A stretch of 47,862 nt of DNA from Halorubrum halophilum (GTDB lineage Archaea > Halobacteriota > Halobacteria > Halobacteriales > Haloferacaceae): NCBI RefSeq assembly GCF_000739595.1, contig NZ_BBJP01000017.1, forward strand, positions 1 through 47,862, in the 5' to 3' direction. Shown piece by piece: positions 1,001 to 40,171 of this stretch; the stretch's first letter is position 1, and each line of letters starts with the position of its first letter. The translations under genes were made by a program, and so were the position numbers. The notes below the pieces were generated by a model. That model saw only the letters and a list, made by a program, of their open reading frames with translations. It was not told the origin of the DNA and made no database searches.

Positions 1001-3468
<2,468 letters not shown>

Positions 3469-3864
3469 TTATTCCCCGTCGGCACGCGGGTCGAACTCCC
3501 CGCGTCGGATCCCCGATCTGACGGGGTCGTGTTCCGCGTCGGTCGGCGGCGGCGCGGTGACGAGCGACGCCTCCAGTCGCTCTCCGTCGCTCGCCCTCAC
3601 GCCGCGCGCGGTCCCCGCCTCCACGACGACGACGTCGCCGGGTCCGACCGATCGCTCCGTCTCGCCTTCCCGGACGGTGCCGGAGCCGGAGCGAACCGTG
3701 ATCGCCACGTCGCTGTCCGGCGCGTGGACCGGGATGAACTGCCCCGGCTCGAAGTAGCCGCAGACGACCTTCATCCGGTCGCTCCGGAACACCTCGCTGG
3801 TCGAGAACCGCTCGTCGTCGTAGTCGCGCTCGGCGTCGAAGTCGGTCGCCGGCACGTCACTCAC
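3469..3864 (-). CDS. Small cupin-domain protein
   Basis: 131-residue single-domain cupin. The beta-barrel core runs from GYFEPGQFIPVHAPDSD through VRSGSGTVREGE to VGPGDVVVVEAGTARGV, with the usual two-motif spacing. Motif 1 keeps one His (PVHAPDSD) but not the full His-x-His pair, so metal binding is uncertain. The start is a GTG at 3864 preceded by a GGAGGG Shine-Dalgarno-like stretch. It is divergent from the DUF2249 gene with 160 bp between starts. The palindrome near 3978 lies about 110 bp from this start, so shared control is possible but less clear than for its neighbours. Confidence 0.75.
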   Translation of the reverse strand: MSDVPATDFDAERDYDDERFSTSEVFRSDRMKVVCGYFEPGQFIPVHAPDSDVAITVRSGSGTVREGETERSVGPGDVVVVEAGTARGVRASDGERLEASLVTAPPPTDAEHDPVRSGIRRGEFDPRADGE

Positions 3865-3971: not shown

Positions 3972-3985
3972 CCGAACGTATTCGG
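3972..3985. promoter_or_regulatory. Palindromic operator, copy a (CCGAA-N4-TTCGG)
   Basis: CCGAACGTATTCGG, centred 46.5 bp before the ATG of the DUF2249 gene at 4025. The identical 14-mer recurs at 4706-4719 and a close relative at 4748-4757, each at nearly the same distance from a start. The position is right for an activator just upstream of the basal promoter of a leaderless transcript. The shape resembles the CGAA-N4-TTCG element I recall from haloarchaeal denitrification promoters (NarO); that link is inference. Confidence 0.7.
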
Positions 3986-4024
3986 CTCAACACGGAATCC
4001 GCCACGTCCCGACTCTCCGATCGC

Positions 4025-4258
4025 ATGCCGAAACTCGACGTCCGCGAGATCCCGCCGGTGAATCGCCACGACAAGATCCACGACGAGTTCGACGAGATGG
4101 ATCCGGGCGAGACGCTCACGATCGTCAACGACCACGAACCGAAGCCGCTGTACTACGAGATGGCGGCCGAGGTCTCCGCGTTCGACGAGGAGGCGTACGA
4201 GGTGCGGCAGAACGCGCCCGACGAGTTCGTTGCGGAGTTCCCGAAGACGGAGGTTTGA
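4025..4258 (+). CDS. DUF2249 domain protein
   Basis: 77-residue protein consisting of one DUF2249 (SirA/TusA-like alpha-beta) domain: LDVREIPPVNRHDKIHDEFD, then LDxMxPGE-like MDPGETLTIVNDHEP and LYYEMAAE. DUF2249 proteins are common beside nitric-oxide, nitrite and hemerythrin genes in archaea and bacteria, but their molecular role is not settled. The ATG at 4025 is chosen over upstream in-frame codons because it gives the standard N-terminus and places the palindrome at 3972-3985 at the same distance as in the neighbours. It is not part of an operon: the next gene downstream is on the other strand. Confidence 0.85.
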   Translation: MPKLDVREIPPVNRHDKIHDEFDEMDPGETLTIVNDHEPKPLYYEMAAEVSAFDEEAYEVRQNAPDEFVAEFPKTEV

Positions 4259-4297
4259 GGCCGTTACCGGGACGCGAACGCGTTTTTGAGATCGAAG

Positions 4298-4669
4298 CTA
4301 CGCCTCGCCGAGGTCGAACAGTCGACGGATCGCCCGCGTTCGCATTCGGTCCCGCTCTTCCGGCCGCTCGATCCGGGCCGCCTGCTCCAGCGTCTGCTCC
4401 GGCGCTGCGGTCAGTTCCTCGACGAGCGCGGACCCGAGATCTCGGACGATCTCGCGCTGCTCCTCGGTGAGGTCGCCGCGTGCGTCGAGCGCCGAGATCG
4501 CCTCGTCGACCTCGTGCCGTTCGATCTCGTCGGTTCGACGGCGGAGCCGCCTCCGGAGTCGCTCCGGATCGAGAGGCGGGTCGGATCGCTCCAGATCGAG
4601 AGGCGGGTCGGATCGGTCTGGCTCCGACTCGGACCGGGCGACGGTCCCTTCGGACCGGTCGGTGCTCAT
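4298..4669 (-). CDS. Stand-alone GlutR dimerisation-like domain protein
   Basis: 123-residue soluble protein. Residues 40-123 look like the C-terminal helical dimerisation domain of glutamyl-tRNA reductase (HemA): RLRRRTDEIERHEVDEAI, LTEEQREIVRDLGSALVEEL, APEQTLEQAA and the end RAIRRLFDLG. The catalytic and NADPH domains of HemA are absent. The N-terminal 35 residues are low-complexity and hold a direct repeat (RSDPPLDLE, RSDPPLDPE). The start at 4669 (MSTDRSEG) leaves a 129-bp divergent spacer to the globin gene with one palindrome for each direction. A role in regulating haem synthesis together with the globin is inference. Confidence 0.7.
   Translation of the reverse strand: MSTDRSEGTVARSESEPDRSDPPLDLERSDPPLDPERLRRRLRRRTDEIERHEVDEAISALDARGDLTEEQREIVRDLGSALVEELTAAPEQTLEQAARIERPEERDRMRTRAIRRLFDLGEA
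4567..4615. repeat. 22-bp tandem duplication inside coding sequence
   Basis: The same 22 bases occur at 4567-4588 and 4594-4615 (period 27 bp) and encode the repeated RSDPPLD segment of the stand-alone GlutR-type protein. The period is a multiple of three, so the frame is kept. Confidence 0.85.
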
Positions 4670-4705
4670 ACCCGAGGGTCGGTCGGCGCAGGGGAGTGTG
4701 TTCTC

Positions 4706-4719
4706 CCGAACGTATTCGG
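4706..4719. promoter_or_regulatory. Palindromic operator, copy b (CCGAA-N4-TTCGG)
   Basis: The 14-mer CCGAACGTATTCGG, identical to copy a, centred 43.5 bp before the start of the minus-strand gene at 4669. Confidence 0.7.
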
Positions 4720-4745
4720 CGGGTGATCGGGTCCCACGAACACCC

Positions 4746-4763
4746 CCGAACATGTTCTTTCGG
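4746..4763. promoter_or_regulatory. Palindromic operator, copy c
   Basis: CCGAACATGTTCTTTCGG. The core GAACATGTTC (4748-4757) is a perfect palindrome centred 46.5 bp before the globin ATG at 4799, exactly the offset of copy a. There is no good TATA box between the site and the start, which fits an activator-dependent promoter. Confidence 0.65.
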
Positions 4764-4798: not shown

Positions 4799-5164
4799 AT
4801 GCCCGATTCCCAGTCGATCTACGCAGACATCGGTGGCCGAGAGGCCGTCGAAGCCGTCGTCTCGGACTTCTACGACCGCGTCTTCGACGATCCGGTCCTT
4901 GAACCGTACTTCGAGGGCGTCGACCGCGAGGCGCTGTACGCCCACCAAGTCCAGTTCATCAGCGCGGTCGCCGGCGGCCCGGTCTCCTACGAGGGCGCGG
5001 ACATGCGGGCGGCCCACGAGGGGATGGGAATCACCGAGGAGGCGTTCGGGCGGGTCGCGACCTTCCTCGCGGAGGCGCTCAGAGAGCACGGCGTCGATGA
5101 GGAGAACGTCGAGACGATTCTCGATGAGGTCGGCGCGCTCGAACCGGACGTGGTCGGCCAGTAG
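4799..5164 (+). CDS. Truncated haemoglobin, group I
   Basis: 121-residue truncated (2-on-2) globin of the TrHbN type. It begins with the family's IYADIGG motif, has Tyr25 in DFYDRVFDD at the B10 position, Gln50 near the E7 position and the proximal His73 in MRAAHEGMGI. Group I truncated globins bind oxygen and nitric oxide and often act as NO dioxygenases. Length is normal and the ATG gives the expected N-terminus. Its promoter shares a palindrome with the DUF2249 and GlutR-type genes, which suggests control by low oxygen or nitrogen oxides (inference). Confidence 0.93.
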   Translation: MPDSQSIYADIGGREAVEAVVSDFYDRVFDDPVLEPYFEGVDREALYAHQVQFISAVAGGPVSYEGADMRAAHEGMGITEEAFGRVATFLAEALREHGVDEENVETILDEVGALEPDVVGQ

Positions 5165-5230: not shown

Positions 5231-5270
5231 GTTGACATCCTCCCCGCCCTTCAGGGCGGGGCTTTCGCCT
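5231..5270 (-). mobile_element. Solo right end of an IS200/IS605-type element
   Basis: Contains TTGACATCC followed by the hairpin CCCCGCCCT-TC-AGGGCGGGG (5242-5261). Read on the minus strand this is the typical right end of haloarchaeal TnpB-type elements (hairpin then AGGATGTCAA), and the same design flanks the tnpB gene at 43.9-45.4 kb. No tnpB or left end is attached here, so it is a remnant. It may act as a terminator for the gene upstream. Confidence 0.65.
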
Positions 5271-5316
5271 TGTAACGTGCATAACTACTTGGCCCATTGT
5301 CACAGATAGGACGTGT

Positions 5317-40136: not shown

Positions 40137-40171
40137 AATTAACTGACCGATTACTCTCGGCGTAGTTAATT
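40137..40171. promoter_or_regulatory. Inverted repeat and TrmB-like site upstream of gap
   Basis: AATTAACT (40137-40144) and AGTTAATT (40164-40171) are perfect inverted repeats 19 bp apart. Between and over them lies TACTC-N7-AGTT (40152-40167), one base from the TACTC-N7-8-AGTA form of the Halobacterium TrmB motif. It is 57-72 bp before the gap ATG. Control by TrmB is inference. Confidence 0.45.

Follow-up and report, generated by a model that had tools for sequence, protein, structure and literature searches.

Three genes and three palindromes at the locus

We analysed a stretch of 47,862 nucleotides from Halorubrum halophilum (the window), in which a DUF2249 gene, a GlutR-like gene and a truncated haemoglobin (globin) gene are each preceded by a palindrome (table 1). 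The preliminary description had reported two identical 14-mers and one variant at 46.5, 43.5 and 46.5 bp, and direct reading of the window bore this out. In the globin copy, positions 4746-4757 read CCGAACATGTTC; a T replaces the last G of the 14-mer and GAACATGTTC is still kept.

Table 1. Genes and palindromes at the locus. Positions refer to the window; distances run from the centre of the palindrome.
Feature	Position (strand)	Location relative to genes	Basis
Cupin gene	3469-3864 (-)	divergent from DUF2249 gene; palindrome 114.5 bp away	PF07883
Palindrome 1, CCGAACGTATTCGG	3972-3985	centre 3978.5, 46.5 bp before DUF2249 ATG at 4025 (+)	direct read
DUF2249 protein, 77 aa, DrpA type	4025-4258 (+)		PF10006 E 1e-23
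Stand-alone GluTR (HemA) C-terminal dimerisation-domain protein, 123 aa	4298-4669 (-)		PF00745 E 3e-7, HemA-tail identity, helical hairpin model
Palindrome 2, CCGAACGTATTCGG (identical 14-mer)	4706-4719	centre 4712.5, 43.5 bp before GlutR-like ATG at 4669 (-)	direct read
Palindrome 3, CCGAACATGTTCTT (core GAACATGTTC)	4746-4759	centre 4752.5, 46.5 bp before globin ATG at 4799 (+)	direct read
Truncated haemoglobin (Bac_globin, cyanoglobin type), 121 aa	4799-5164 (+)		PF01152 E 1e-22, alignment

Domain searches recovered the families proposed earlier (PF10006, PF00745 and PF01152), with 83.2 bits for the DUF2249 protein against a cut-off of 29.5 and 80.8 bits, above cut-off, for the globin. The invariant columns of the globin alignment include F24, Y25 and H73, which we take to be haem-pocket residues. 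The suggested haem, oxygen and nitric oxide theme is supported; the GlutR-type gene does not encode an enzyme but a free-standing HemA C-terminal domain (see below). Elsewhere in the genome, a DUF2249-cupin fusion gene (L075:3705-4247, contig C23 of G000) carries a palindrome 45.5 bp upstream. Together with the divergent DUF2249 and cupin neighbours of the window, this fusion suggests a common function. The window cupin gene is probably a functional partner of DUF2249, and its use of the palindrome is only putative.

Two features lie at the edges of the cluster. A KatG catalase-peroxidase gene (window 1001-3142) adjoins it, as it also does in the relative G018 (L255), the called KatG start in that relative having CCGGACGCGTTCGG 47.5 bp upstream; no such site was seen in the window. 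On the 3' side of the globin gene, TTGACATCCTCCCCGCCCTTCAGGGCGGGGCTTTCGCC (window 5231-5275) resembles the end hairpin of an IS200/IS605-type element, with no transposase seen beside it.

The palindromes keep their distance from the start codon in relatives

We compared the promoters of orthologous genes. Among the best 30 loci of relatives, the DUF2249 palindrome was found 45.5-47.5 bp upstream of the gene in all 29 that were readable, which comprise two paralogous groups and two families. For the GlutR-like gene, all 11 loci that combine a promoter of its own with a readable start have the palindrome at exactly 43.5 bp, and three of them have no globin palindrome alongside; in operons with this gene in second place, the palindrome precedes the first gene. 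These counts exclude loci cut by contig ends, and some GlutR-like starts in L111-L125 are uncertain (frames open upstream, GTG starts). Codon-based gene calling overlooked the GlutR-like gene and does not work in relatives of lower GC content, in which starts were taken from homology or from the longest frame.

Upstream of the globin, CCGAACATGTTCTT was found at 45.5-46.5 bp in all Halorubrum orthologues, and all 12 core columns are at least 90% identical in 11 Halorubrum/Halolamina promoters. The third, imperfect copy is not a decayed one: all Halorubrum/Halolamina orthologues of the globin gene are preceded by precisely this form. The palindrome also occupies the same globin-promoter position in other haloarchaeal genera. 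In a non-redundant set of 64 haloarchaeal globin promoters, the palindrome lay at 44.5-47.5 bp with two mismatches or fewer in 33 and was lacking in about half, compared with means of 1.0 (maximum 4) in shuffles and 1.7 (maximum 6) in other position windows. The consensus of these 33 promoters, CGAACATGTTCG, equals the published Haloferax mediterranei motif CGAAYATDKTYG.

In each promoter set the palindrome core is better conserved than the rest, with mean column identities of 92% versus 73% for DUF2249, 100% versus 72% for the globin and 95% versus 67% for the GlutR-like gene. The assignment of one copy to each gene also proved right: GlutR-like genes without a globin retain only the -43.5 copy, and distant globins only the -46.5 copy. 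Across several haloarchaeal families, the palindrome thus stands at a fixed distance just upstream of the promoter, 43.5-47.5 bp from the ATG in orthologues, the exceptions being nirK and nor. Its consensus is CCGAACATGTTCGG, that is, CGAAY-RY-RTTCG.

Site positions in the genome are not random

The loose core CGAAN4TTCG occurs 207 times in the 3.68-Mb genome and twice in the window, where 1.7 occurrences are expected, which is not significant by itself. The finding therefore rests on the extended sequence and on position. CCGAAN4TTCGG, for which the preliminary description had proposed a genome scan, occurs 17 times in 3.68 Mb, and its reversed control not at all. The exact 14-mer was found three times, the third copy lying upstream of nirK, with about 0.07 expected per genome on both strands. 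For CGAAYRYRTTCG, 8 of 27 sites fall 38-49 bp before a start where 0.33 are expected (P ~8e-10, assuming about 3700 genes and counting the GlutR-like start, which was added from homology). The positions of CGAAYRYRTTCG relative to starts are thus strongly non-random. Many CGAACGCGTTCG sites fall within genes; these were treated as coding noise and left out.

We considered whether the likeness of the three sites could be chance, or a duplicated promoter segment without regulatory meaning. The abundance of the 12-mer core and its lack of excess in the window would fit such an origin, but the flanks around the three window sites are unrelated, the distance is conserved over several haloarchaeal families and the genomic positions are far from random. 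A meaningless resemblance is therefore scarcely credible, and the three-site pattern is not chance.

The same element precedes nirK, a nitric oxide reductase gene and further accessory genes

We then examined which other genes of the genome carry the element. The identical 14-mer precedes nirK (TIGR02376, 397 bits; cut-off 296) at C103:~40140-40141, 139.5 bp from the called start. Another palindrome lies at C91:162686, 137.5 bp from the called start of a NorB-type nitric oxide reductase gene and 38.5 or 44.5 bp, according to the start chosen, upstream of a divergent ThiS-like gene. Two facing copies, each at 44.5 bp, precede a DUF2249 operon and the COX1-like gene divergent from it. The palindrome is also found 42.5 bp upstream of a UbiA-like reading frame; for the divergent SirR-type gene, whose start we re-assigned and regard as probable, CCGAACATGTTC lies 43.5 bp upstream. 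For a Polyketide_cyc2 gene the distance from the called start is 105.5 bp. Spacing of 43-47 bp is therefore true of accessory genes and not of all members, with nirK, the NorB-type gene and the Polyketide_cyc2 gene having more distant sites. TATA-like elements in these promoters are weak.

These results support the shared regulon proposed in the preliminary description, though not its small size: the window genes belong to a genome-wide NirK/Nor set that includes four DUF2249 genes (the window one among them), the COX1-like gene and the SirR-type gene. A search for sites at nar, nir and nor genes had likewise been proposed. They are present at nirK and at the NorB-type gene, while no narG scored over the cut-off in the genome search and no nar operon with an adjacent narO was found. 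With no NarG over the cut-off, the organism appears to be a partial denitrifier of the NirK+Nor type, which is frequent among haloarchaea (PMC8400030).

Several of these loci have additional features. An operon of a TIGR04031 protein and its partner, a TIGR04347 pseudo-radical-SAM protein (NirJ/AhbC-like; L035:4463-6075, contig C101 of G000), has CCGAACACGTTCGG 69.5 bp upstream and is possibly a further haem-related member of the regulon. The UbiA/CtaB-like frame beside nirK (L031:6724-7161, contig C103 of G000) has 145 aa compared with 453 aa in the relative G031 (L254:14919-16277), a difference probably due to gene breakage or to faulty assembly in this genome. Locus L254 (4358-5437) also encodes a 359-aa protein of four DUF2249 domains, with a palindrome upstream and an HTH_10 regulator beside it.

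The palindrome is the published haloarchaeal denitrification element

The preliminary description had noted a resemblance to the CGAA-N4-TTCG element of denitrification promoters, and we found sequence identity with the published element: the window sites match CGAA-N4-TTCG and CGAAYATDKTYG. In Haloferax volcanii, such a palindrome is reported at denitrification genes and ahbD, and at nirK it is essential for promoter activity and anaerobic activation (PMC5746218, citing Hattori 2016). Our set has the same core, carries it at nirK and nitric oxide reductase genes and likewise includes haem-synthesis genes. It differs in the extended form CCGAA..TTCGG, in the position 43-47 bp before the start codons of accessory genes and in the absence of a nar operon.

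In H. mediterranei, the semi-palindrome is described in 82-83 promoter regions (PMC10062603, PMC11218638). Mutating it in the nor and nos promoters lowered their activity, and a truncated haemoglobin gene also has the palindrome upstream (PMC10062603). During denitrification, cyanoglobin was induced with a log2FC of 4.16, as were all four DUF2249 genes (3.2 to 8.7), several of which have the motif (PMC11218638). Targets shared with our genome are DUF2249 genes, cyanoglobin, nirK and nor, together with a bacterio-opsin-activator-type regulator; unlike in the window genes, the motif lies 66-79 nt before the ATG of nirK, nor and nos (PMC10062603, PMC11218638). A more distant parallel is offered by DrpA and DrpB of Thermus, which function in nitrate respiration (cited in PMC11218638) and have in common with the window protein the DUF2249 domain and the link to nitrogen-oxide respiration. 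This likeness lies at the level of the domain, and no NarG was found in the Halorubrum genome.

As both the motif and the induction are on record for DUF2249 and globin genes, the window genes fall into a known kind of regulon, which is real, already known and not small. What is new is the stand-alone HemA dimerisation domain as a constant member beside DUF2249, and the genus-wide fixed spacing. We found no mention of the HemA-tail protein in the main text of the reports on the H. mediterranei motif (PMC10062603, PMC11218638). The Haloferax denitrification palindrome thus emerges as a class-wide element with tight spacing, so that regulon members become readable from sequence in uncultured haloarchaea.

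The palindrome as a probable activator site

Since the site is conserved across many species and present at nirK and nitric oxide reductase genes, the three window genes are most likely members of the set already known for low oxygen and denitrification. Taken as a whole, the evidence is best explained by the palindrome being an activator site of the haloarchaeal anoxia/denitrification regulon, an explanation in which we have high confidence. On this proposal, a protein of the helix-turn-helix type, acting as a dimer and most likely belonging to the BAT/HTH_10 family represented beside nirK and DUF2249 genes, would bind just upstream of the BRE/TATA of presumed leaderless promoters. A drop in oxygen or the arrival of nitrogen oxides would lead it to recruit the general factors, so that it would activate rather than repress. 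NirK and nitric oxide reductase would then be co-expressed with NO/haem accessory proteins in NarG-less Halorubrum. The truncated haemoglobin may scavenge or buffer NO and O2, the DUF2249 proteins could act in N-oxide sensing or at a metal centre, and the free-standing HemA domain may pair with HemA to tune haem synthesis.

Alternatively, a repressor such as the SirR/DtxR-type protein of the nirK cluster could use the palindrome as its operator, coupling the genes to iron rather than to oxygen and nitrogen oxides. The nirK cluster does encode a Fe_dep_repress protein whose own gene carries a palindrome, the SirR-type regulator of H. mediterranei is the most induced regulator in denitrification (PMC11218638), and a haem and iron theme would fit such an operator. 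The decrease of Haloferax promoter activity upon mutation of the palindrome (PMC10062603) is, however, what is expected of an activator site, as is the location just upstream of the core promoter, and nirK and halocyanins are copper proteins. We therefore regard a repressor operator as very unlikely and retain the activator site.

BAT-type regulators are favoured over NarO

Published work lists the regulator of this motif as unknown (PMC11218638). Twenty HTH_10 proteins are encoded in the genome. Two BAT-type members with 58% mutual identity are linked to the regulon, one adjoining nirK (L031:7417-8076) and one in the DUF2249 cluster of contig C76. Relatives of these two are encoded about 1-10 kb from DUF2249 genes in many genomes and adjoin a second globin in G011, G031, G040 and G044. 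Co-occurrence of BAT regulator and DUF2249 is only moderate (27/5/8/7, P 0.03).

Another candidate for the bound factor is a NarO/DmsR-type regulator with an N-terminal CXnCXCX7C oxygen sensor, this pattern reportedly being Hattori's criterion of 2016 for the NarO type. One DmsR_N+HTH_10 protein has exactly this pattern, and its gene (C101:17503-18105, L035:3504-4106) lies close to a CCGAACACGTTCGG site. Denitrification in H. volcanii is under NarO control (cited in PMC11218638). Proteins of the C101 type are, however, present in many Halorubrum genomes without a DUF2249 gene and missing from several that have one, and the C101 gene was not seen next to DUF2249, globin or nirK genes. Furthermore, narO is reported as not found in H. 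mediterranei (PMC10062603, PMC11218638), which has both motif and regulation. We consider a NarO/DmsR-type factor rather unlikely, and the NarO link drawn in the preliminary description is a lead and not a result. Because H. mediterranei lacks narO, narG is absent here and the DmsR_N-type protein is widespread without the targets, we favour the nirK- and DUF2249-linked HTH_10/BAT regulators as better candidates. This sets the motif apart from NarO and points to a factor for a question that the literature leaves open.

A free-standing HemA dimerisation domain

Over 73 aa, the GlutR-like protein shares 48% identity with the tail of the HemA encoded in the same genome, the full-length gene of which is on contig C12. 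It scored over the PF00745 cut-off, matching only positions 27-99 of the dimerisation domain, and showed neither the catalytic nor the NADPH-binding domain. Judged by its domain content, it is a free-standing HemA C-terminal domain and not an enzyme. Plant GluTR chains were the first matches to a profile built from the window protein with its orthologues, a 105-residue GluTR fragment (4yvq) being at the top. In the structure model, which is of good confidence for residues 31-100, a long helical hairpin is accompanied by a short helix. Foldseek returned no significant match for this model (best E 2.1), and both top matches were GluTR; the HemA-tail homology therefore rests on sequence.

In plants, the GluTR dimerisation domain is the docking site of the inhibitor FLU (PDB 4yvq; PMC4726326). 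The window protein differs in being free-standing, without catalytic or NADPH-binding domains, and in lying under the denitrification palindrome. A copy of the enzyme's dimerisation part placed under the denitrification switch suggests control of haem synthesis through mixed dimers. We tentatively propose, as a possibility that falls short of a probable one, that the protein is a dedicated haem-synthesis regulator under the anoxia/nitrogen-oxide palindrome, which would form mixed dimers with HemA or capture another HemA-binding factor and thereby reset ALA and haem flux in denitrification. If so, the HemA tail would be an archaeal counterpart of plant FLU-type GluTR control made from the enzyme's own tail. 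The regulon thus gains a testable candidate haem-control protein. In Halorubrum, all stand-alone copies (E < 1e-13) are either separated from a DUF2249 gene by about 1 kb at most or part of a cluster of AhpC/TSA, DUF2249, SirR-type and copper-oxidase genes.
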